Below are positions 1,908-14,859 of a stretch of 23,561 nucleotides of DNA, piece after piece. The stretch is from positions 1 through 23,561 of IMG/VR virus record IMGVR_UViG_3300006917_000157. One strand, written 5' to 3'. This stretch comes from a virus. Both the position numbers and the translations under genes were made by a program. Within the stretch, counting starts at the first letter, position 1, and each line of letters starts with the position of its first letter. Under the pieces are notes generated by a model, which did not search any database, was not told where the DNA came from, and saw nothing but the letters and a program-made list of their open reading frames with translations.

Positions 1908-4900
1908 TCATTGCGCGGCTTCCGAGGGCGCGAGCAGGAATTCCTGCCCTTGCTCTCGTTCTATCTGACGCTCCATGCGTCGCAAGTAACCGGGGTTCAA
2001 CGCCTCTTGAATCTGGTAAAGCACAAGGTAGTCAAGAACTATACGGCTGTAGAACAGATTCATAAATGGGGTATTGGCGATCAGGATACGAAACGCCGAG
2101 GCAGCGACATCATCCCCGCGCATGGCCCGTTGACGCAGCTCGTCAAGGTCGCCAATCACTCCAAGCGTCGGGCCGGCCAGCGTATCGACAATGTTTCGTC
2201 CGTACCTGTTGGATTGCCCCAACAGGAAGTCACCATAGATGCCGAGTGCGCCGCCTTGCAGCATGGCCACTAACCATGTCTGAACATTCTCGGGATCTCG
2301 AGGTGTCTTGCCCTTGAGCAGATCCTTGGCAGCCATCGCGATATAGCCAAACGCCGTCATCATTAGGATCATCTGCGCGAGGCCGAGCATGTCGCCCTTG
2401 CCATACTTGAGATATTCAGGCAGCGAGCCATAACCGCGGCCGTAGATTTCTCGGCCAAATACCTGCCGGGTAAGCGCAGTCGGGAAGCCCTTAAACTGAG
2501 CAACGTACCGAGCGATCTCACCCCAGAACGTACCGGGCCTCTGCCCTCGTACCCAGAAATAGCGCGACCGAATGTCGGGCTCGATTACAGCGGTCATAGC
2601 CTGATCGATGATGAAATTACGCAGCCGATCGGCAAGGTCTCGGCGCGCATTAACCGCCGCGGCGTCCGTTGGCTCGCGGCCGATCTTAGTCAGGTACTCG
2701 CGGAATGCCTCGATGTCGAGTTGGTTGATTCGTTCTGGCACAACATAAGTGCGTTTATCGGCGGCTTCAATAAAGCCCTGCCGGATAACATCCCACTCTG
2801 GAGCGGTAATCCCATACTGGTCGAACAGTCGCTTAGCGTTAGAGTCGAGCCCATCGAACGACGTATTGCGGAGGGAGCCCAGCCAATTAGCCGTGCCAAG
2901 CTCCATGCTTTCACGCAGGGTATCTGTCCACCATTGCAATCCATTCAGCCGGAAGAAAACTCGCATTAGATCGGCAGATCCGGCAGACATCAGATCGTCT
3001 GAATCGAATCGAGTAGCGACGCTCCCGACAAGGTTATCGGCCACCGTGTCGATCATCCCGAGGATACGCTTGCGCTCGCCCTTGGCGCGCCCTTGCAGTA
3101 GGCCGCTGATTCCTTCGGCGATACCAGAGAACAGGCCGCCGCGGCCTTGATACTTGATCTGGCTGGCATAGACCGGCAGGTCGGTGACAGCCGAGATAAC
3201 TGCACCGCCAAGTTTCGCCATTGATTGAACCACGCGCACGTTCGATCCGACGCGAGCGGCCATTGCGCCGCCGGGGACGTTGGCTCGACCGTCAAGCATG
3301 GAGAGCAACGCCTCCGCGGTATCTCGCGTTCCGGCAAACTTTTCACGCAGCTCTGGAGTGCGAATGATCGCGGCCTCAACCTCAGCCATAACCGCCTTGA
3401 GTGTGTAGCCGGGGTTCGGGCCGAGAACTCGCATAAGCCCCGCTTGCTGCGCAGCGCGACCGAGATCGCCAAGGATTGCCTCATTCAACTTGCCGACGCC
3501 AAACTCAGTCAGGTAATCGAACTCGGCATCCGCGTCCTTGAAGTAGATCACGCGAGACTGCGAGGCGCGGCGCGCAAGCGAGCCCGGTGCCGTGTAGGCG
3601 GCAGCCTCATCATCGATTGCCGACAAGTGGCGGCCGGCAGAAAGGTCAGCATAGACCACATCGAGGAACTCCTCGAGGTTCTGTCCCGGCTTCAAGGTGC
3701 GCTCAACGTCAATGCGCTGGCGCACAAAGTCCTTCCATTCTTTATCGCCAGCCGCACGGATTTTCATAAAGTCATGCTGCTGCCGAGTAATGTATCCCGT
3801 CAGGTCGCGAATCCACGCGCCGAATCGGTTGCGAGTGTTGCGGGAATCTTCTCGGTACTTGTAGACGATCTTGGCGATCTTGACCGCAGTCGGGTCAAGA
3901 CCCTCAAGGCGAGGATTGTCGCGGCCCATCTGATACAGAGCGCGGGCAACATCGCGAGAGTAAGCATCGCTTGCAAACCCTTCGACAAGACCCTCTTGCT
4001 CCATCTCGGCGAGCATGCCCTTAGTCCAACGAGTGAAGTATGTGCGCTGCCAATGGAACGCCGAGTCTTTGGAGCCGAACCGAGCGAACGACGAACCGCC
4101 GAGCAGAGAAAGCAGACCCTCGGACGGGTTGTCTGCAAACTGAGTCAGGATGCGACCGACCGCTTTGGTGCGCGCCGCGAGACTGAGCGCAGCATTGCGG
4201 GCTGCGATCGTGGCATCGAGCTTGATGTTATTGGCGAGCGAGTTTGCTGCGCGGGTCGCATCGCCCTCGAGCGAGTCGATCTTGTCGGCGGCCGTGAACT
4301 GCTCCTGCGCTTTCTTGAGTGTAGAGCGAACGCGGGTGTTTTCATCCTTCAGCCGAGCCAGAAGCGTGTCGATCTCCATCGCCGTGAGCTGGCCTTTAGA
4401 TGCCGCTTGCATTGCACTTCGCGCGGCGGCGTTGTTGCCGATCCTGTCGGCGGCAGCGCGCACGGCCTGAGCGTAAACGTCTGCGCGGGCGATCGCGTCA
4501 TCGAACGGGCGCATCTGTTCTTTCGTGTCGCCAGCGTTGTATGCCATGCCTTCCTCAAACACGGCTTTCTGGCGCATGGCTTCGGCAGCATCAAGATCGC
4601 GTAATGGCAAGAACGCTTCGCTGGTTTCCGGCGAAATTCTGGCTCGTCGGTCTCGCGGAATGATCCGCCCACCACGATCTTGTTTTGCGCCAACAGAAAT
4701 TGCGCGACCGCTCTCGTCGATGAAAATTGTGTCAAGCGCCACGTTACGCATCGCCTGAGCCGACGCATGGTCTTTGGTCACCGCGAAAATAAACGATGAA
4801 TCACTTGTCAGCGCGAACTTACGCAAGGCAAACATTGCACTAGCTTTGCCTTGCGGAGTGTTGCCGTAAGACATGATTTTTTCTTGCGGTACTTCAACGA

Positions 4901-7900
4901 TGTTTTGGACGATGTACCTATTATTCGTCGCAATCAGCACCGTGGACTTATTGTCGAACTTTAGTTCTCGAGCAAGGCCGGCAAGGTTTTCGGAGTTGCG
5001 AATTGGCATGGCCGCCATTTTCTTGAGGCGCAGCAAACTCGGCTGTCCAAAATCTTTCTTGATTGTCTCGGACGCTCCGTCTGCCTTGATTACGGAATAC
5101 TCATTGGTATCGATAATCACATGATCGCGGAACTCCATCCCGCGTCTCTTGAAGAACTTGGCGACGTTTGTGGTGAACTCAATATCAGCCGAGCTTGGTC
5201 TGGCGATCTCGCTTGGATGATTATGCAAAAGATAAACGCCGCGCGCGCCGATCCCGTATGCACGGTCGATAAGCTCGTTTAAGAAGTCGGTGGCCTCTGG
5301 CCCTATCCATCCAGCGGCGGCGGCCGGCAGCCGAGATGTTGCCCCTATCTGCCCAACAATGTTTCCGTTTTCGTCAGTAAAGACATATCGCAATGTCTCA
5401 AACCGCGGATCGCGGTAGACCTGAGCGAGTGTGGCAAAGTCTTCTGTCGAGGTTACTTTTTGCCCGACAAGGGAAGCTCTCTGTCTTTCAGCGAAATCAC
5501 GCGACAAGGAGAGTGCAAGTAGGTCGGAGGAGGATCGTAGATCATCCACCGCTTTGACTGCGGCGCGCTGGGCTGCGACAGCTCGCGGGCCGCTTTGAGT
5601 CGGAACTGGCCCGAGATCGAGATACAGTTGGAGCTGCTCATTTACTGTGAACGCTTCTGATTTAGAAATTCGCTTACCAGCTCGTCCTGTTCGTCTTGCG
5701 CGTTGCTCGGCCTGTAGCTCTTCATCAACTGCTCGAGTGGCTCCGTCGATTCGATCTCTGGAGATTCCTCGTCCTTCGGCGAGCTTGGCTGCTGCATTGG
5801 CGTAGTCTGGAGCTGCATCGTCTGCATATCCGGCTTCGACTGCTTCATCTGCTGCACCCGCTGCATCATATAACCTTTTCTCAGGATACCAGAGCAAGGC
5901 TTGCATGTCAGCCATTGTTAACTCTGGATTGTCTTTCTGTAACTGCTCGAGGGCTACGCCAAAGACCTTGCGGAGACGGCCGCGCTCTGGCGGGCCGGAC
6001 GGGGCTTCCTTTTGTCCGTCGAGGTATTTAGCGAGTGCGTTGCCGGTTTTGCGAATCTCATCGCCTAACCCAACTCTAACCTTGCCTTTCTTCAAAGCGC
6101 CGACAATCGAGCCCAATGTCTCTTCGGAAAATCCAACGCCGATCTGGTTGATAGCCGCCCTGTTTGGCTTTTTGGTGCTAGCCTTAGCAATCGCAAAAGC
6201 AATTTCATCTGGCCGCCCCAGAGCAATCTTCTTGCCGAGTATGCCTTCAAGCGCCTTGCGCTGATCCTTGTCTAGCAGTTTGACAAGTGAAACAAGGGAC
6301 TTTTTCTTGGCGGCAACCTGCGCCGGGTTTTCCTCGATGAGCGTTCCAGTCCACCGGCCCCATGTACGCATGAGCCAGCGGTCGATTGTGAGCTGCTCAA
6401 AGTTGCCGTACAGGTTTGAAAAGAATCCGTTGCCGATCTTCGGGCCAAGAATGGCCGAGCCGTAGACTTGGGTCGAAAGGTTTTCGCCGCCAACCTCAAG
6501 CCCAGAGAATGCATTGATGTTTTTAACTGTATCTTTCGACCGCATGAAGTTCTCAAGCGCATCGAATCCATGCTGCTTGAGCATCACGTTGTAAAGCTCG
6601 AGAGAGTCGTTAATAGCGCCAGAGGCTGTGCCAATGCCTATATCTGTTGGCATGCGGCCTGTCTTTTTCCATGCCTCATATGCCCGCATCGCAAGCTCGA
6701 AATTCTTGTCAACCTTCAGCCCGTTTGACGTAACGGCCAGCGCCCAAGTAAACGCAAACCTATCCTCTCGGCTCTTAAGGATCTCGGGATGAATCAGCGA
6801 GATGATGCGGAGCGCCTTGGTAACCTTCTCGTTGTACCAGCCGACCGCGTTCGCATTGTCGCGTAAAGCAACACGCGCCTCGCGCACGGCCATGCGGATC
6901 AGATACCGCTCAACCTCTGGAGTCATTTCCGCGAGGTCAACACCGGCATCGCCCGCGGCAGCATTAACCGCGTCTTGAATTTCCTTCTTGAAAGAACGGT
7001 TGTTTGGGAACTCTTTGCTGCGAGCAAGCTCAAAGGCCGCCTCGACGTTGGCGACATTGTCCACAGTAACCGGAACGTCGCCGTACTGCTGTGGCTCTTC
7101 TTGCACCATCAGGCTGCGACGGAATTCGCCCTCGGCGTTTACCGCATTGACAGCCTCGTCAGCAGCCGCTCGAGCATCGGCAAGCGCGGCATCGGCGGCA
7201 TCCAGCATCGGGACACGACTCGGATCTGGCGTCTCAGCGGCCGCTTCAAAGTCCACCAATGCAGCCTGATCAGGACGGAAGTTTTCGACCGCGGCATTGC
7301 GGGCAGACTGGATTGGGAAGTCTGGGCCACCGCGGGCAAGTGACGGATCAAGCTCGACGATTGGGTCGACGTTGATATTCCGAGCGTCCATAGCTTGCGC
7401 GACGCCAGTCTCAAGTGCGGCACGGCGAGTTGCAGGATTTAGCGATTCGGCGACATTGGCAGCCGCGTTCTCGGCATTGAGTCGTTCCGCAAACGCCTCG
7501 TACTCGCGCAGAGTCTCGGGGTCAATTTCACGGGCAACATCAAACTCGGCGCGCGCCTCGTCATCCATAGACCGCAGGCGATCGGCGATCTGCGCCACAG
7601 ACATATCCCGGCTAAACCCCTCGGCTTCCATTCGGGAGATGTAATCGCGGCCATAAATGAAACTAGAGAGTTTGTTGCGTACTGATCCTTGCCAGATCTT
7701 GTTGCCGCCAATGTCCTCCATCAGCGCATCAAAAATCTCGGAATCGGTGATGTTGTTGTAATCGGCTTTGTCAGGGAAATAACCGGCTTCAAACAATCGC
7801 TCGCGAACCGAGTCCATGCCAGAGGTTTGCCGGTTTTCTGGCGTATCTCTACGAACCAGCCCCGGCGCAGTCTTGTTATTGACGTCGCGCGCAGCCAGTT

Positions 7901-8906
7901 CACCCCCCTGATCGATGATGCCCCCGGTTCGGCGAATAAACTCGGTAATCGATACCGCTTTCTCGCCGGTTGCGATTGACACCTGCTTGGAGTTATTCGG
8001 GTCAAGGTCGTAAATGCTGTTCAGTTCTTTCAGGATCTTTTGGGCCGACTCGGTGTAGGCGTCCACAGGCTGGACAGTCGTCGGCTCAAACCGTTTGGTA
8101 GTCTCAACGCGAACTGGAGGCGGTACATCGGGAGCCGCCGGCAGCGTTTCCCGTGACTCAATAATGGCCTGCTGGACGGCAGCATCGACATCATTGCGCG
8201 GAGGCAGCGCCTCAAGCCCTCTGAGGCGACGGACGGCTTCATACCCTGCCCCGCCCACGGCATGGAGACCGCCGCCCAAAACGCCTCCAAATGCGATATT
8301 AAGCAGGGAGTCGACGCCGTCGTATTCGGCCTGTTCGGCTTGGGCCGTGCTTAGGATAAGCGGCTCAACCAACGCAGCGCCGGCAGCGCCTTCGACGAAA
8401 CCGACGCCAGCTCGAACCCCAGTGCGGCCTAACAGCCCGGCTTGCGCTCGGAGCATGGCCGCATACTTCGCTTGACTGACTACCGGCACGAACGCCGTTG
8501 CGATATTGATTGGGTCAAAAAGTGAATAGCCGAGACTCGCGGCCACTTTCGCAGTTCCGCGGCCAAACCCGCTGGGGCTTCTGGAATACAACTCGGCGCG
8601 TCTATTCTCAATCCGCTTGCGACGGATAAGTATGTCGAGCGCCTCTTGGGTAATGCCCTGATCAGGAACAGTCAGTTGTTCGCGGAGCCCCGCCGATCCG
8701 AGCTGCGCTCTTGCGCTTTCTGCTGACAGGATGTTTCCGGTTTTGCGCGCCTCTGAAAGCTCAAGCCCCCTAACAATGGATTGCGTTGGGCTAAATTCAA
8801 ATGCTTCGCGACCAACCTCAATAAGTTCCTCGCCCAGCGTTGGCTCACGAACTTCGACTTGCCGCTCGTATGGCTTACGGAGAGAAAGCAGGCCGTCAAA
8901 GCTCAT
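1908..8906 (-). CDS. Giant internal virion / ejection protein (T7 gp16 position), 2332 aa, with JAMM-type domain
   Basis: This single uninterrupted frame takes up 30% of the window. It overlaps the upstream 686-aa gene by ATGA. Its position after gp13-, gp14- and gp15-like genes and before the tail-fibre anchor matches T7 gp16, but it is well over 1.5 times as long. Visible blocks are: residues about 126-220, a conserved hydrophobic segment (SLFDPINIATAFVPVV ... VRAGVGFVEGAAGAALVEPL) seen in phage giant ejection proteins; about 690-1015, a block resembling a domain of phage polyvalent proteins (FFSNLYGNFEQLTIDRW and MQALLWYPEKRLYD); about 1160-1285, a RadC/JAMM-like domain; a long Ala/Arg-rich helical middle; and C-terminal hydrophobic segments at about 2171-2199 and 2208-2231. 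No lytic-transglycosylase motif was recognised. The likely role is an inner-core protein ejected into the host envelope with the DNA. Confidence 0.9.
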   Translation of the reverse strand: MSFDGLLSLRKPYERQVEVREPTLGEELIEVGREAFEFSPTQSIVRGLELSEARKTGNILSAESARAQLGSAGLREQLTVPDQGITQEALDILIRRKRIENRRAELYSRSPSGFGRGTAKVAASLGYSLFDPINIATAFVPVVSQAKYAAMLRAQAGLLGRTGVRAGVGFVEGAAGAALVEPLILSTAQAEQAEYDGVDSLLNIAFGGVLGGGLHAVGGAGYEAVRRLRGLEALPPRNDVDAAVQQAIIESRETLPAAPDVPPPVRVETTKRFEPTTVQPVDAYTESAQKILKELNSIYDLDPNNSKQVSIATGEKAVSITEFIRRTGGIIDQGGELAARDVNNKTAPGLVRRDTPENRQTSGMDSVRERLFEAGYFPDKADYNNITDSEIFDALMEDIGGNKIWQGSVRNKLSSFIYGRDYISRMEAEGFSRDMSVAQIADRLRSMDDEARAEFDVAREIDPETLREYEAFAERLNAENAAANVAESLNPATRRAALETGVAQAMDARNINVDPIVELDPSLARGGPDFPIQSARNAAVENFRPDQAALVDFEAAAETPDPSRVPMLDAADAALADARAAADEAVNAVNAEGEFRRSLMVQEEPQQYGDVPVTVDNVANVEAAFELARSKEFPNNRSFKKEIQDAVNAAAGDAGVDLAEMTPEVERYLIRMAVREARVALRDNANAVGWYNEKVTKALRIISLIHPEILKSREDRFAFTWALAVTSNGLKVDKNFELAMRAYEAWKKTGRMPTDIGIGTASGAINDSLELYNVMLKQHGFDALENFMRSKDTVKNINAFSGLEVGGENLSTQVYGSAILGPKIGNGFFSNLYGNFEQLTIDRWLMRTWGRWTGTLIEENPAQVAAKKKSLVSLVKLLDKDQRKALEGILGKKIALGRPDEIAFAIAKASTKKPNRAAINQIGVGFSEETLGSIVGALKKGKVRVGLGDEIRKTGNALAKYLDGQKEAPSGPPERGRLRKVFGVALEQLQKDNPELTMADMQALLWYPEKRLYDAAGAADEAVEAGYADDAAPDYANAAAKLAEGRGISRDRIDGATRAVDEELQAEQRARRTGRAGKRISKSEAFTVNEQLQLYLDLGPVPTQSGPRAVAAQRAAVKAVDDLRSSSDLLALSLSRDFAERQRASLVGQKVTSTEDFATLAQVYRDPRFETLRYVFTDENGNIVGQIGATSRLPAAAAGWIGPEATDFLNELIDRAYGIGARGVYLLHNHPSEIARPSSADIEFTTNVAKFFKRRGMEFRDHVIIDTNEYSVIKADGASETIKKDFGQPSLLRLKKMAAMPIRNSENLAGLARELKFDNKSTVLIATNNRYIVQNIVEVPQEKIMSYGNTPQGKASAMFALRKFALTSDSSFIFAVTKDHASAQAMRNVALDTIFIDESGRAISVGAKQDRGGRIIPRDRRARISPETSEAFLPLRDLDAAEAMRQKAVFEEGMAYNAGDTKEQMRPFDDAIARADVYAQAVRAAADRIGNNAAARSAMQAASKGQLTAMEIDTLLARLKDENTRVRSTLKKAQEQFTAADKIDSLEGDATRAANSLANNIKLDATIAARNAALSLAARTKAVGRILTQFADNPSEGLLSLLGGSSFARFGSKDSAFHWQRTYFTRWTKGMLAEMEQEGLVEGFASDAYSRDVARALYQMGRDNPRLEGLDPTAVKIAKIVYKYREDSRNTRNRFGAWIRDLTGYITRQQHDFMKIRAAGDKEWKDFVRQRIDVERTLKPGQNLEEFLDVVYADLSAGRHLSAIDDEAAAYTAPGSLARRASQSRVIYFKDADAEFDYLTEFGVGKLNEAILGDLGRAAQQAGLMRVLGPNPGYTLKAVMAEVEAAIIRTPELREKFAGTRDTAEALLSMLDGRANVPGGAMAARVGSNVRVVQSMAKLGGAVISAVTDLPVYASQIKYQGRGGLFSGIAEGISGLLQGRAKGERKRILGMIDTVADNLVGSVATRFDSDDLMSAGSADLMRVFFRLNGLQWWTDTLRESMELGTANWLGSLRNTSFDGLDSNAKRLFDQYGITAPEWDVIRQGFIEAADKRTYVVPERINQLDIEAFREYLTKIGREPTDAAAVNARRDLADRLRNFIIDQAMTAVIEPDIRSRYFWVRGQRPGTFWGEIARYVAQFKGFPTALTRQVFGREIYGRGYGSLPEYLKYGKGDMLGLAQMILMMTAFGYIAMAAKDLLKGKTPRDPENVQTWLVAMLQGGALGIYGDFLLGQSNRYGRNIVDTLAGPTLGVIGDLDELRQRAMRGDDVAASAFRILIANTPFMNLFYSRIVLDYLVLYQIQEALNPGYLRRMERQIEREQGQEFLLAPSEAAQ
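5052..5429 (-). other. JAMM/MPN (RadC-like) metalloprotease-fold domain inside the giant ejection protein
   Basis: Residues about 1160-1285 of the giant protein contain LLHNHPSEIARPSSAD. Written as H1228-x-H1230-x7-S1238-x2-D1241 it fits the JAMM zinc-binding signature exactly, and the HNHPS core is typical of RadC (PF04002). Downstream, HVIIDTNEYSVI matches the beta-strand that follows in RadC-like proteins. The general-base glutamate that RadC-type proteins place on the strand before the motif is not obvious. The closest aligned position reads NIVGQIGATS, with Gln at residue 1186 (codon 5349-5351). The domain boundaries are approximate, and the loss of the Glu is inferred from alignment by eye. 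Confidence 0.8.
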
Positions 8907-10963
8907 TGAAGCCCTCGCACGGGGGTTCCCGGTTCACGCCTAATTTTTTCCTTCAAGGTCTCAGGCATGTTCCGCAACTGCTCCCATGTATAAATGACTG
9001 GATTGCCGCTCTTATCAAGCACGGGCTCCCTGTCGTACATCAAAGCAACGCGGTCATCGCTTGGCAACGTCTGCCAGTACGCATCTCGAATTCTGCTATA
9101 CCCAAGATCTTTTACGGCATTGTTTCTGGCTATTGTCAGCCCTTCTCGCAAGACGCGATTTGCCATCGCGCTCTGTCTTGGGACGCGAATCATGCTGTCC
9201 TCAATTTCCGCAAAGACGTACCGCTCGCCAACAACCTCGGAATACGCAAGATCGGCTGCATCGTTGACGCTTTTTCCGGCTCTGACGTAATCGACCGCAA
9301 GCCGATACGCCGCATCTTCAAGCATTGCGATCATTGATCCGTCGCCGCTCTGCCCTTGGAACGAGGCGAATACGTCGGTCATAACGTCGTTGACTTTGTC
9401 TCTAACGTCTTTAGGCGCTTTGCCTGAGGGCAATAAAGCATTGAGATCTTTTTCGGAAAGCGCAGACAACTCAATTAACCGATCCGCAGGTTTCTGGCGC
9501 ATTCCAGCGCCAATCACCGCAGCCGATCCCGGCAGCTCTTTAGCAACCTGAGCAAACACGTTCGGCCAATACTTGCCCCACTTCTGTCGTTCGGCAAGGA
9601 TGACCGCGGAACCAACCAGAGACTTATCGTCCTGCGATCGGCCATAGACTCTAGCAACGATGTCGTCGGCAACATTCTTCGGCAGGATTGCAGGATTCTG
9701 AATGCCGATGTTTCTCGCTTCAGTCACGGCCAGTCTGCCGTAATTCTGGGCGGCAGACATAGCGGCTTCTGGCGTCTGAGCAGAACCGATTGCTTCGTAT
9801 GCAGAGCGCAGAGACGGTGAGTTCTGGATTAGGAATGCGCCGGGATCGTCTTCTTGCTGTTTGACGATGTTTGTGTAGTTTCTTAACGCAAAATCGTATC
9901 GCTTGACCGCATCGGCTGCGCCTTTCTCGGTCTTTGGTTTTAGACTTTCAATCTTGGCGATCGCGCTTTGCCGGTTCATATTGGCAAGCGAGTTCATCAT
10001 CGGAGCAAGTTTTAATGTTTCCGAATAACTATCGTAGTCGTCGCCCATGCCGGCAGCGATAAATCTCGACCGCGGAATCGGATTTTGCGGAACGACGCCG
10101 ATGCTCATCAAAGCAGTCTGGTTTGCAACATCGTCTCGCAGAACGTCACGCAGTTCTGCTCTGCGACGCTCCTGCTCTCGTTTGATCTGCTCAAGTTCAG
10201 CTTCCGTCTGCGCGCTCAGTCGATTGCGATCATCCTGATCAAGATCATTGATAAATGCGAATGTCGACTTACCGGGCTCTGCTTTCAATTCTTTCTGAAT
10301 CGCAGCCGGATTTGCGCGCATCGATGAAAGCGCGGCATCAAGAGCCAGATTGCTTCGTGCCTTGGCCCACGCTTTTTCCCGTTTATCTACTGGAAGAATG
10401 GCGAATTGGAGCCCGACATCTTTCTTGACCGCTTCATAATCTTGCGGTTTGGCAGAGACGATAAGGCGACCAGACTCAAATGATTGCTCTGCCTTAGTTA
10501 TGTCGCGGTCTACCTTGGCATTAGCCTGCCAGCGCAGAGAACCATCCTGCACATTGAGGCCAAACGAATCAGCTTGCTCGCGCAGCCATGCGCGGGCGCG
10601 GTCAGACTTGGCCTGATTTACCTCATCGTCTGCAATCTCGCGATAGGCATTTAGAGCGCGGTTGGTGTAGTCATCAAGTTCGTCAGGTTTGGCAAGGGAT
10701 TCCTGCTCAAGCTGTCTAGACTTTTCAAGCCACCGAGATTTGATGCTGATGGCGCGCGAAGATGCATCGATCGCAGCCTCATCTTCTTTTCGCTTCTCAA
10801 TCTCCCGGTTCCGCTCGCCGATTAACTTTCCGGCTGCAACTGCCCCTCGAGCGATCGCCTCCGCGGTGTCCGCAGCCTGAGTGCCGACAGCAGCAAGCCC
10901 GCGGCCACTCGGCGTGGAGATGCGCGGGACAACCTGCTGTCTGTAGAACTCGAGCTTAGCCAT
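8903..10963 (-). CDS. Internal virion protein, T7 gp15-like position, 686 aa
   Basis: This is a long, soluble, mostly helical protein. The N-terminus (KLEFYRQQVVPRISTPSG) is typical of phage internal core proteins. It is followed by an Ala-rich helix and charged coiled-coil segments (about 45-110 and 250-275, with EQIKREQERRRAEL). No catalytic motif or membrane segment was recognised. It lies between the gp14-like and gp16-like genes. Its size is close to that of T7 gp15, which forms part of the inner core and the trans-envelope channel. The start has GGTGA about five bases upstream, seven bases after the previous stop. The end overlaps the giant gene by ATGA. The assignment rests more on position, size and general character than on a specific motif. 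Confidence 0.75.
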   Translation of the reverse strand: MAKLEFYRQQVVPRISTPSGRGLAAVGTQAADTAEAIARGAVAAGKLIGERNREIEKRKEDEAAIDASSRAISIKSRWLEKSRQLEQESLAKPDELDDYTNRALNAYREIADDEVNQAKSDRARAWLREQADSFGLNVQDGSLRWQANAKVDRDITKAEQSFESGRLIVSAKPQDYEAVKKDVGLQFAILPVDKREKAWAKARSNLALDAALSSMRANPAAIQKELKAEPGKSTFAFINDLDQDDRNRLSAQTEAELEQIKREQERRRAELRDVLRDDVANQTALMSIGVVPQNPIPRSRFIAAGMGDDYDSYSETLKLAPMMNSLANMNRQSAIAKIESLKPKTEKGAADAVKRYDFALRNYTNIVKQQEDDPGAFLIQNSPSLRSAYEAIGSAQTPEAAMSAAQNYGRLAVTEARNIGIQNPAILPKNVADDIVARVYGRSQDDKSLVGSAVILAERQKWGKYWPNVFAQVAKELPGSAAVIGAGMRQKPADRLIELSALSEKDLNALLPSGKAPKDVRDKVNDVMTDVFASFQGQSGDGSMIAMLEDAAYRLAVDYVRAGKSVNDAADLAYSEVVGERYVFAEIEDSMIRVPRQSAMANRVLREGLTIARNNAVKDLGYSRIRDAYWQTLPSDDRVALMYDREPVLDKSGNPVIYTWEQLRNMPETLKEKIRREPGTPVRGLQ

Positions 10964-10970
10964 GAATCAC

Positions 10971-11519
10971 CTATGCGTTTACGCGACCGCCTTGTGGCAG
11001 TAATGAGGTCGGTGCCATAGAACGTCGGGTTACCGCCGTTGGGCCGCTTACTTTTGGCGTGAATTTTGTGCTTGCGCGTCCGCTTGGGAACTGACCGCCA
11101 GCGGCGGCGTAAGTGCCAAGCCCAGCGCCAGCAGCCTGCAAGATGCCCTGCACCCATGACGGCCGGGATGCGCGGGTGATCCGTGCCTCGCTCAATAGAC
11201 TCTGCGCTTCAGTCTCGCCTTGATACGCCAGAGAAAGCGCGTCCAGTTCTGCCGCGGTCGCGGCCTGCTTGTAGACATCTCCGAACGTCACCGAGTCCAC
11301 AAGTCCAGCCTGCGCTCCGGCGGCTCGCAATTCACCGAACTGGCGGCGGGTCTCGCGACTAAGTGCCTCAGTCTCAAGCCCTGCCTGTTGTCGGGCAACA
11401 CCAGCCTGAGTCTCAAGCAGTTTCGCTTGTGCCGCGCCGACTTGTCGCGCTTGTCCAGTCGCCATCAAGGATGACGCCGCAGATGCTGCGGCTGCGATAA
11501 ACGGAATTGCTTGTGCCAT
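10971..11519 (-). CDS. Internal virion protein, T7 gp14-like (Ala-rich, membrane-active)
   Basis: This 182-aa protein starts with a hydrophobic Ala-rich stretch (IPFIAAAASAASSLMAT). A long Ala/Gln helix follows (ARQVGAAQAKLLETQAGVAR, then RETRRQFGELRAAGAQAG), and then a second hydrophobic Gly/Ala stretch (ILQAAGAGLGTYAAAGG) and a low-complexity basic tail. This is the usual architecture of gp14-type ejection proteins, which form the outer-membrane part of the ejection channel in T7. The start codon shares a base with the stop of the GNAT-like gene (TAATG). The next gene begins seven bases after its stop. Confidence 0.75.
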   Translation of the reverse strand: MAQAIPFIAAAASAASSLMATGQARQVGAAQAKLLETQAGVARQQAGLETEALSRETRRQFGELRAAGAQAGLVDSVTFGDVYKQAATAAELDALSLAYQGETEAQSLLSEARITRASRPSWVQGILQAAGAGLGTYAAAGGQFPSGRASTKFTPKVSGPTAVTRRSMAPTSLLPQGGRVNA

Positions 11520-11947
11520 TACATCACCCTCGAATACATGACCATATCGCTGCCGTCGTGGCCGAACGCTCGCATCAACCCTTCCTGCTCAAACCCGAGC
11601 ATTCTCGCCCATCTGTGTCCCGGCTCAAAGGTCGGATACACATACGCCTCTATCCTGCGAATACCGCAGCGATCCAAAAACCTCTCAACCTCGCGGTGCA
11701 GCGGCTTCATGCTTCTGCCCGCGTCCCAAGACAGCAGCGCCCATGCGGACGCCCTGCCCTTCCACAACTCCACCACCCCGGCGCAACAGATGATCCTGCC
11801 GTCCCGCCGAGCGGTATAGCAGGGGCCGGCATCTACCAGCTCCTGCCCGTATCCCGGCCGGCCTACAAACGCCGCCAGATACTCCTGCGCCGGTTGCAAC
11901 CTCAGTTCGTCGAGATGCTCCGGCTTGAACTTGACCACCTCGAGCAT
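11519..11947 (-). CDS. GNAT-fold protein in the gp13 position (virion-associated or assembly)
   Basis: This 142-aa protein has the layout of a GCN5-related N-acetyltransferase. It has an N-terminal strand-helix (LEVVKFKPEHLDEL), central strands (GRIICCAGVVELWKGRASAW), a helix (REVERFLDRC), and the C-terminal GNAT signature region (GHRWARMLGFEQEGLMR) followed by a final strand (SDMVMYSRV). The acetyl-CoA loop (Q/RxxGxG/A) is not clear, so enzymatic activity is doubtful. Many T7-like phages carry a GNAT-fold protein here, between the nozzle gene and the gp14-like gene, where T7 has gp13. It shares one base with each neighbour (TAATG on both sides), so it is translated as part of the tail/ejection block. 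Confidence 0.75.
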   Translation of the reverse strand: MLEVVKFKPEHLDELRLQPAQEYLAAFVGRPGYGQELVDAGPCYTARRDGRIICCAGVVELWKGRASAWALLSWDAGRSMKPLHREVERFLDRCGIRRIEAYVYPTFEPGHRWARMLGFEQEGLMRAFGHDGSDMVMYSRVM

Positions 11948-14859
11948 TAGCCCGCCGTTTCAAGCTCTGGATACAAAGCCACCACCGTGAGCGGCAGCGG
12001 CTGATCCGCAACCACCCAGATCCTTCCGTCCGTCTCGTAACCGCCGGGGAACGCTAGAACGTCGGTATCGCCAGTCAATGTCGGCGGCACCTCGTCCATG
12101 AAGTCGTTGCCCGTGCGGTATGGAATGTAATCAAGATTCGTCGCGCTCGGCCCAAACTTGCCGCCGAGGCTGTTGTAAAGCCTGAAGCCGAGCTTGTGGA
12201 TGCGCTTGGTCTTGGACTGCGCCGTACCTATGGACGCGCCTGCATCGATTCTCTGAGTCGCCAGAATCGACGTATACGGCAATCCAACCACCGCCCGAGA
12301 TGCCGGAGTCGGCAGCGTCACCGTGCCGTCAATCACTAGAAGCCCAGTCACCTCCGCTCCGTCTGCGAGCGCAGAAACCGTCTCGCCCTCGAGATGGTAA
12401 AGCCCGCGCAAAGTGCTAGACGTCAAACGCCATGTGCCGGAGGCAATGTCGTTGCTTGGGAACGCAGACAATATCTTGATGTAAACCAAATCTTGAGTGA
12501 CATAGCCGACGATCTCAGCTCTTGCGCTGCGCCACAGCTCGAGGCTTGAATCGTAATACCGATACACAATCTCTCGGCCAACGTCTGTTGGCAAGAATAT
12601 CGGGTCGTTGATGACAAAATCATCGCCATCTTCAGTCTGCAAGAATTCGTCTGCTTCGGTCACGATTTCAAAAGACGATGTTACTGTCGCGGTAATATCG
12701 CCTTCGATTTCAATGCCGTTGTTATTTTCAAGAAGTACCTTCTCGCCGCCTTCAAGCAAAACATCCCCAGCGCCGCCGATATTTAGAAACAGATCTGCAA
12801 ATATCGGGGAGTTGTATTCCAAAGCTGAATCCAAATACACCGCGCCTTGGATGTCATCTCCGTCCTCAAGAGACTGTGCAAGATATTCAACTGATCTCTG
12901 CGTGAACTGCACATCGGCTTCGGTGACGAGTTGATTCTCGCCTTCCGTAACCAAATCCTCTCCCGCTTCGGTACCAAGCTCATAGGCTACTTCGCCCTGT
13001 ATCGTACGGGATACAACCAGCCATACATCGTCCACATCGCCGTCAGGGCCGGGAATAACCTGCACCGCTTCGACTTTGGAATTAAGGCCGCCGATTGGAT
13101 GCTGGTGCCAACCGTAGATGTTTTGCTCGCGATCGTAGGTCAGGCCAATCAATCGACCGTCGCCGAGAACGCACCAGATAATGTCGTCCGGCTCCTTTTG
13201 GAATTCCATGTCGATGATGCCGGATTTAGTGATCTCGGGATAAAGCACACTCATATCCCGCGGCACCCACGCATCAGCTTGGATGTCGAACCGCAGCTCC
13301 ATAATTCTGCGCCCGCCTACTCGAGCAAACAGAATCGCGTCCTCGACTAGTACCGGCTCGAGCTCCATTGAACCCTCTGCCGATTGCAGATCAAACTTCA
13401 CATTCTCAGGCCCAAGCGCGGCGGTCGTAATGTTCTCGCGGATTGCAATCTCAGCGCCTGCCGTGCCTGCGATCAACGCATTGCCCGGTCGCAGCCAGCG
13501 GATCTTGTCGACGTTGCCGATCGCGATCGTGAGATTGAGCGCATTGTCAGCAAGGATCTCGCCCATCGTGTCAGGCGCATGAGAGCTGTAGTCGCCGGCC
13601 ACGGAACCGTAGACGTTCTGCCCGCCGGCCCAAAACAGCCGATCGCGCCAGAAACAAACCTTGTATGGGAATGAGCCGCCAAGGCCGCTTCCCCACGCGC
13701 CAATGCGGTACGCGCAGGACGTCGCAGAAAGCAATTCGCTTGGGGCAACGCCGGGGCCAATGATGTCGGCAGTCACTACCGTCGTGCTGGTGACTCCGGT
13801 GATCTTTAGTACCACATAGCCGGGGTGCAGGAACTTCCAAAGTACGCCGGTATTGCCGTCGTAATCTTGCCCTTCCTCATGGATCGGCCGCACAGCTCCT
13901 GTCGTCGCCGTGTTTTGTGCTTGGTAATACTTGCCACTCGACTTGCGAATGTCTCCGGTCGTAATCGATTTTCCGGTTTCCCATTGCGTCGTCGTAATGT
14001 TGATTGGCTGCAAGCGCAGCAGCATCCCTGTTCCATCAGTAAAGATCGGCGACGCAGCCGTTACAGTTACCGAGCCTGTCGTGCCGGAGAGCGTGAAGTC
14101 TACTTTGGTGTCAGGTTCGCGCTGGAACGGGCCATCAGTCGGTGCGTACTCGGCAAAGGCCCAGCTCGTATTCCCGCTGCGGGTCAGGGTGCGCGGAGCG
14201 TAACCTTCGCAGCCGATATAGAGAACGTCACCAGACTGAGCGATCGAAAGTGCGGAAGTGCCTTCTGCCGTGAAAAGATCTTCTTCGGTGTAGGGCGAGG
14301 CGATCGTATATACACGTTGTATATCGCCGTTCCCTAAGTAAGCGTCATAGTTTGTCGTGTCGATCGCGGCATCTTCGATGCTGTAAAGCTCAAACGTCTT
14401 GGCAGCCGTATTGATGTTCGTGACCTTGACGTAACGGCCATTGATCTGTGACATGCCCTGTACGTCTCTGACGTACATCCAATCGCCGTTAGCCGGGTCT
14501 GTTCCAACGTAAGTTATAACGCCGGGCTTTGCTTGCGTGATGTTGGAGACATCGAGCGCGTCCTCAAGAACAACGCCGCGGTCGGTGTAGAACCGACAAT
14601 ACTGGCCGCCAAACTCGATGACGTATGCTTGATCGAATGCAAACTCAAACTTTTGCAGCCAGACCTTTTTGTCTGGGTATAGCGCCTGCAAGACATGCTT
14701 AGTGCCGGGGCAACGCTTTGCCGGCCCCTGCGCGGTCGGGATAAACCGCCGCATACGGAACGCGCTCGATGCGTACTTATCAAAATCGGTGCGGCCGCTC
14801 ATCATCGGCCCAACTTCACCACCGTTGAAATTGACGACGGCTGGATTAGCGTTTGGCAT
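11947..14859 (-). CDS. Tail tubular protein B / nozzle (T7 gp12-like), 970 aa
   Basis: The N-terminus (NFNGGEVGPMMSGRTDFDKY, then CRRF-type residues and GPAKRCPGTKHV) is a hallmark of T7 gp12-type nozzle proteins. These form the lower tail tube and carry the fibres. The rest is beta-rich, with recurring Y-x-F/Y-S-I and W-x-W strands. It also has a region near residue 390-440 (FPYKVCFWRDRLFWAGGQ, VYGSVAGDY) that is conserved in this family. At 970 aa it is longer than T7 gp12 (794 aa). Part of the excess is an acidic repeat region around residues 627-753. The ATG directly abuts the TAA of the gp11-like gene. The stop overlaps the GNAT-like gene by one base. Confidence 0.9.
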   Translation of the reverse strand: MPNANPAVVNFNGGEVGPMMSGRTDFDKYASSAFRMRRFIPTAQGPAKRCPGTKHVLQALYPDKKVWLQKFEFAFDQAYVIEFGGQYCRFYTDRGVVLEDALDVSNITQAKPGVITYVGTDPANGDWMYVRDVQGMSQINGRYVKVTNINTAAKTFELYSIEDAAIDTTNYDAYLGNGDIQRVYTIASPYTEEDLFTAEGTSALSIAQSGDVLYIGCEGYAPRTLTRSGNTSWAFAEYAPTDGPFQREPDTKVDFTLSGTTGSVTVTAASPIFTDGTGMLLRLQPINITTTQWETGKSITTGDIRKSSGKYYQAQNTATTGAVRPIHEEGQDYDGNTGVLWKFLHPGYVVLKITGVTSTTVVTADIIGPGVAPSELLSATSCAYRIGAWGSGLGGSFPYKVCFWRDRLFWAGGQNVYGSVAGDYSSHAPDTMGEILADNALNLTIAIGNVDKIRWLRPGNALIAGTAGAEIAIRENITTAALGPENVKFDLQSAEGSMELEPVLVEDAILFARVGGRRIMELRFDIQADAWVPRDMSVLYPEITKSGIIDMEFQKEPDDIIWCVLGDGRLIGLTYDREQNIYGWHQHPIGGLNSKVEAVQVIPGPDGDVDDVWLVVSRTIQGEVAYELGTEAGEDLVTEGENQLVTEADVQFTQRSVEYLAQSLEDGDDIQGAVYLDSALEYNSPIFADLFLNIGGAGDVLLEGGEKVLLENNNGIEIEGDITATVTSSFEIVTEADEFLQTEDGDDFVINDPIFLPTDVGREIVYRYYDSSLELWRSARAEIVGYVTQDLVYIKILSAFPSNDIASGTWRLTSSTLRGLYHLEGETVSALADGAEVTGLLVIDGTVTLPTPASRAVVGLPYTSILATQRIDAGASIGTAQSKTKRIHKLGFRLYNSLGGKFGPSATNLDYIPYRTGNDFMDEVPPTLTGDTDVLAFPGGYETDGRIWVVADQPLPLTVVALYPELETAG
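12601..12981 (-). repeat. Acidic beta-hairpin repeat region within the nozzle protein
   Basis: Residues about 627-651 read as degenerate tandem units of the type L-x-TE-x-G-E (GTEAGEDLVTEGENQLVTEA). A second cluster at about 698-753 repeats the theme (GDVLLEGGEKVLLENN, then IVTEADEFLQTEDGDDFV). The units are short, acidic and beta-turn-rich. They are separated by a non-repeated stretch that includes ARYSTD-region DNA on the opposite strand. The repetition is visible in the protein but too diverged to be a clear DNA repeat. It looks like a surface insertion relative to T7 gp12. Its function is unknown. Confidence 0.5.

Follow-up and report, generated by a model that had tools for sequence, protein, structure and literature searches.

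The window (the whole 23,561-nucleotide stretch of viral DNA analyzed here, IMG/VR record IMGVR_UViG_3300006917_000157) appears to encode a JAB (JAMM) metallohydrolase of the RadC clade that is catalytically competent and forms part of the cargo of a podoviral internal virion protein. We assign this reading a probability of roughly 0.6. Comparisons of sequences and predicted models support the identity of the domain, its complete and conserved catalytic set, and the fused cargo architecture, around which we infer a bound metal, an activity, ejection into the host, a substrate, and a role for a second domain. The features that define the JAB domain are as follows:

1908..8906, minus strand: polyvalent internal virion protein at the T7 gp16 position, 2332 aa (open reading frame; PHROG matches)
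5061..5468, minus strand: RadC-clade JAB domain, residues ~1147-1282 (Pfam RadC, hhalign, AF2 and Foldseek)
5184..5225, minus strand: H1228-x-H1230-x7-S1238-x2-D1241 metal/oxyanion motif (sequence; conserved in relatives)

By sequence and model comparison, residues ~1147-1282 are a genuine RadC-clade JAB domain. Pfam RadC (PF04002) matches with E = 1.3e-11 and 44.9 bits, twice the cut-off of 22.1, hhalign of the domain to a RadC alignment gives a probability of 98.6, and the RadC structure 2qlc is the sole significant PDB sequence match; matches to the full RadC-protein models NF000642 and TIGR00608 fall far under their cut-offs. The motif pointed out in the sequence-only reading starts at H1228, the first residue of HNHPSEIARPSSAD in the giant protein, and is real: it lies within the Pfam RadC domain, and 0/2000 composition shuffles of the giant protein reproduce it. 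The JAB fold proposed along with the motif is well supported by an AF2 model of residues 1140-1300 (built from 21 sequences; pLDDT 81, pTM 0.78), for which Foldseek returned the RadC crystal 2qlc as the best match (E ~1e-8, TMt 0.74-0.81), followed by Rpn11, PfJAMM1, BRCC36, and CSN5.

The phage JAB has in common with the RadC family (PF04002; Chlorobium tepidum 2qlc; E. coli YicR) the fold, the HNHPS-x5-PSxxD motif, the DHxI element, and a catalytic Glu before beta1. However, the HhH N-terminal region of the family was not recognized in the phage protein, the signature YRDPRFET(F/L)R leads into beta1, and there are ~8 more residues between beta2 and the helix. The phage domain also differs in being located inside a giant protein, where it is followed by a probable degenerate JAB. 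Of 16 phage-collection matches to the JAB domain, the five that were read all look like ordinary stand-alone RadCs, and the first scan of genome contigs with A2 gave no match.

The sequence-only reading had held that the canonical glutamate is missing and that Gln1186 occupies the general-base position, which would leave a degenerate binding module. Two codons bear on this claim:

5397..5399, minus strand: codon of E1170, the canonical JAMM glutamate (RadC Glu column)
5349..5351, minus strand: codon of Q1186 on strand beta2, not conserved (variable column in relatives and RadCs)

In an alignment with eight independent RadCs (2qlc, E. coli YicR, and six others), all eight have their invariant Glu in the column of E1170, and 15 more complete RadCs, picked by the Pfam profile, have a Glu 50 residues ahead of the first His, with the same spacing as in 2qlc. 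The E1170 position is Glu in 24/24 relatives collected with seeds lying outside this site. It is also Glu in 90/90 members of a wider set, many loci of which were collected with the seed YRDPRFET, which itself includes this Glu and guaranteed its presence there. The H, H, and D of the motif are present in 88 of these 90 relatives, and the remaining two rows lack this stretch. A profile comparison of Prok-JAB with RadC pairs Glu with Glu (probability 66), and the alignment of Prok-JAB with the phage set alone is weak and shifted. In the AF2 model, E1170 (model residue 31) directly precedes beta1 (model residues 32-38), which agrees with the published description of a RadC-like center having "one E residue at the N-terminus of beta1" (PMC11981726). 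In AfJAMM, E22 is the proposed acid-base residue (PMC300881).

By alignment and topology, E1170 is the JAMM glutamate at the predicted metal site. The sequence-only reading had named a conserved glutamate at that site as grounds for rejecting its own proposal; it searched the second strand, whereas the RadC Glu lies earlier, and the missing-glutamate claim should therefore be dropped. Although Gln1186 is invariant in the closest relatives, its column is non-catalytic and variable in RadC (H, D, E, E, T, C, H, and H in the eight proteins) and among the 90 relatives (46 Q, 24 E, 10 H, 7 A, 2 T, and 1 Y), and the RadC Glu column is filled by the E1170 position everywhere. Conservation also rules out the two glutamates that had been suggested as candidates, E1179 and E1204. 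On the alignment, a JAB without a general base is thus refuted, and we consider this reading extremely improbable.

The complete E-HxH-x7-S-x2-D set is conserved in ~90 divergent relatives, which argues for selection on catalysis, and the domain looks catalytically competent rather than degenerate. An intact JAB fold with a purely structural or binding role would fit the literature surveyed, in which we found no demonstrated activity of any RadC-clade JAB. However, the five active-site residues are almost strictly conserved among widely divergent proteins, which makes such a role quite improbable.

This protein does seem to contain a degenerate JAB-fold module, but in the form of the next domain:

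4680..5006, minus strand: probable degenerate second JAB-fold domain, residues ~1301-1409 (AF2 model, Foldseek, co-conservation)

The AF2 model of this segment has the JAB order of elements (pLDDT ~80 over the core, pTM 0.55), and its top five Foldseek matches are the five chains of 2qlc (probability 1.00, TMt 0.51-0.59, E = 1e-3 to 1e-2). The HxH...D metal ligands are absent from the segment. A sequence profile comparison of the second domain with the JAB was not significant, so the assignment is a fold-level one from a single medium-confidence model, and residues ~1301-1409 are a probable degenerate copy of the RadC/JAB fold. Since this domain directly follows the JAB in 76/94 relatives, the two possibly constitute a conserved active/inactive pair. 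Similar pairs are found in MPN+/MPN- enzymes (Rpn11-Rpn8, CSN5-CSN6, and BRCC36-KIAA0157), in which an active JAB sits beside a ligand-free JAB fold. In contrast to those pairs, both predicted partners here belong to one chain and both are RadC-like. A tentative extension, which we rate below even odds, is that this single-chain RadC-fold pair is a phage counterpart of MPN+/MPN- enzymes, which tailed phages would inject as a hydrolase to attack nucleic acid or a conjugate in the host.

Immediately C-terminal to the second domain, residues ~1419-1437 carry the conserved motif RRxR(V/L/I)SPxTSxxFxYLR, which is found in 32/100 relatives of otherwise different architectures. In a separate observation, the L058 and L061 (Acidovorax) genomes each have two RadC-type matches close together. 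Those of L061 are in one 2407-aa open frame, possibly two JABs in one protein.

The JAB region is embedded between parts that resemble internal virion proteins, and the following features describe this setting:

8226..8837, minus strand: N-terminal part, a separate gene in relatives (Tr60_Ab31 ORF15, 49%; HTVC100P gp45, 34%)
5706..7076, minus strand: conserved cargo domain, residues 611-1067 (60% identity with the ctEw122 podovirus giant protein)
1917..4319, minus strand: C-terminal internal virion part, a separate gene in relatives (Tr60_Ab31 ORF16, 39%; HTVC100P gp44, 33%)
10971..11519, minus strand: gp14-like internal virion protein (phrog_418 internal virion protein, E = 1.3e-10)

Within the 2332-aa protein, phrog_684 (virion structural protein) matches residues 1499-2330 with E = 4e-173 and phrog_3003 matches residues 23-247. 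In each of two phages, a pair of adjacent separate genes matches the protein: at residues 35-227 and 1530-2330 for Pseudomonas phage Tr60_Ab31, and at residues 24-221 and 1587-2328 for Pelagibacter phage HTVC100P. These genes are homologous to the N- and C-terminal parts and have a like order. However, the two parts remain separate in those phages, with no JAB cargo matched, whereas in the window they are fused. The giant protein is thus, by sequence comparison, a fusion of internal virion parts around ~1,250 residues of cargo. No Pfam match was found for the cargo domain at residues 611-1067. The ctEw122 giant protein that contains it has ART-PolyVal and LPD22 but is without RadC, and the domain is also present in Limnohabitans phage DC33.

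The sequence-only reading placed the domain in a giant protein that is ejected into the host. The location of a RadC-clade JAB inside a giant phage protein is supported, and ejection is probable, as judged from the gp14-like neighbor and internal-virion synteny. The Pfam T7_gp14 match of the 10971..11519 protein is weak and under the cut-off. The C-terminal part and the protein encoded at 8903-10963 have no PDB sequence match, and hence no sequence link to the solved T7 core proteins. Elsewhere in the locus, a small open reading frame (11519-11947, minus strand) lies between the genes for tail tubular B and the gp14-like protein, a position at which HTVC100P has a putative acetyltransferase. 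A Pfam E1_FCCH match on the tail protein (11947-14859) scored 21.8 bits, under the cut-off, and is probably a chance match.

Relatives of the JAB domain occur in giant proteins with LPD5, ddrB-ParB, LPD1, SLT, ART-PolyVal, PBECR5, InPase, and LPD38 domains, with LPD38 in 6 of the 11 further relatives scanned. Domains of this kind are carried by injected polyvalent proteins (Iyer et al., 2017; PMC5512222), which combine several unrelated domains in one large mobile-element protein. The window protein does so with RadC, the conserved cargo domain, and the virion parts, and both it and its relatives are polyvalent proteins in that sense. Like the polyvalent RadCs of Iyer et al. (PMC5512222), the JAB described here is part of a giant multidomain mobile-element protein, and its relatives similarly join it to ART-PolyVal, ddrB-ParB, InPase, and LPD domains. 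The difference is that the present RadC resides in a podovirus internal-virion locus. The earlier survey is inconsistent on this point, as it reports RadC in prophage polyvalent proteins and elsewhere confines it to those of conjugative elements (PMC5512222).

The fused architecture raises the question of whether the JAB may be a self-processing peptidase that cuts the giant polypeptide and frees its N- and C-terminal parts. The split genes of Tr60_Ab31 and HTVC100P would fit such processing, as would the linker motif RRxRxSPxTSxxF after the JAB pair, and MPTase domains have been proposed to act in this way in other polyvalent proteins (PMC5512222). However, the JAB is also found in other architectures and the cleavage site is hypothetical, and we regard self-processing as unlikely.

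Somewhat less doubtful, although still on the unlikely side, is an enzyme that processes nucleic acids or nucleotides, in line with the proposal of Iyer et al. on RadC. RadC is fused to HhH and helicases (PMC5512222), and some JAB relatives carry SNF2, ResIII, and AAA_34/strawberry-notch domains. On the other hand, a DALI search with a RadC-like domain gave metalloproteases rather than nucleases (PMC11981726), and nuclease activity was not found in the literature surveyed.

Under the favored reading of a competent metallohydrolase, the metal ligands would be H1228, H1230, and D1241, with E1170 as the residue that activates the water and S1238 as the one that stabilizes the transition state. 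The JAB domain would enter the host together with the genome and hydrolyze a host-side bond early in infection, either in a protein or isopeptide, or in a nucleic acid or nucleotide. The degenerate JAB-fold domain may be the half that binds the substrate or a partner, a role that MPN- subunits have toward MPN+ enzymes. RadC JABs have been argued to be without the ubiquitin-tail groove (Iyer et al.; PMC5512222), which weakens an isopeptidase role.

These findings remove the false lead of a JAMM domain lacking its glutamate and put in its place a testable one, namely, a RadC-type active site that is widespread and strongly conserved among the internal-virion and polyvalent proteins of phages. 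The probable RadC-like segment without metal ligands that follows the JAB is a new point. Because the function of RadC is unsettled, a phage that uses RadC as cargo would provide a defined context for identifying the substrate of this domain.
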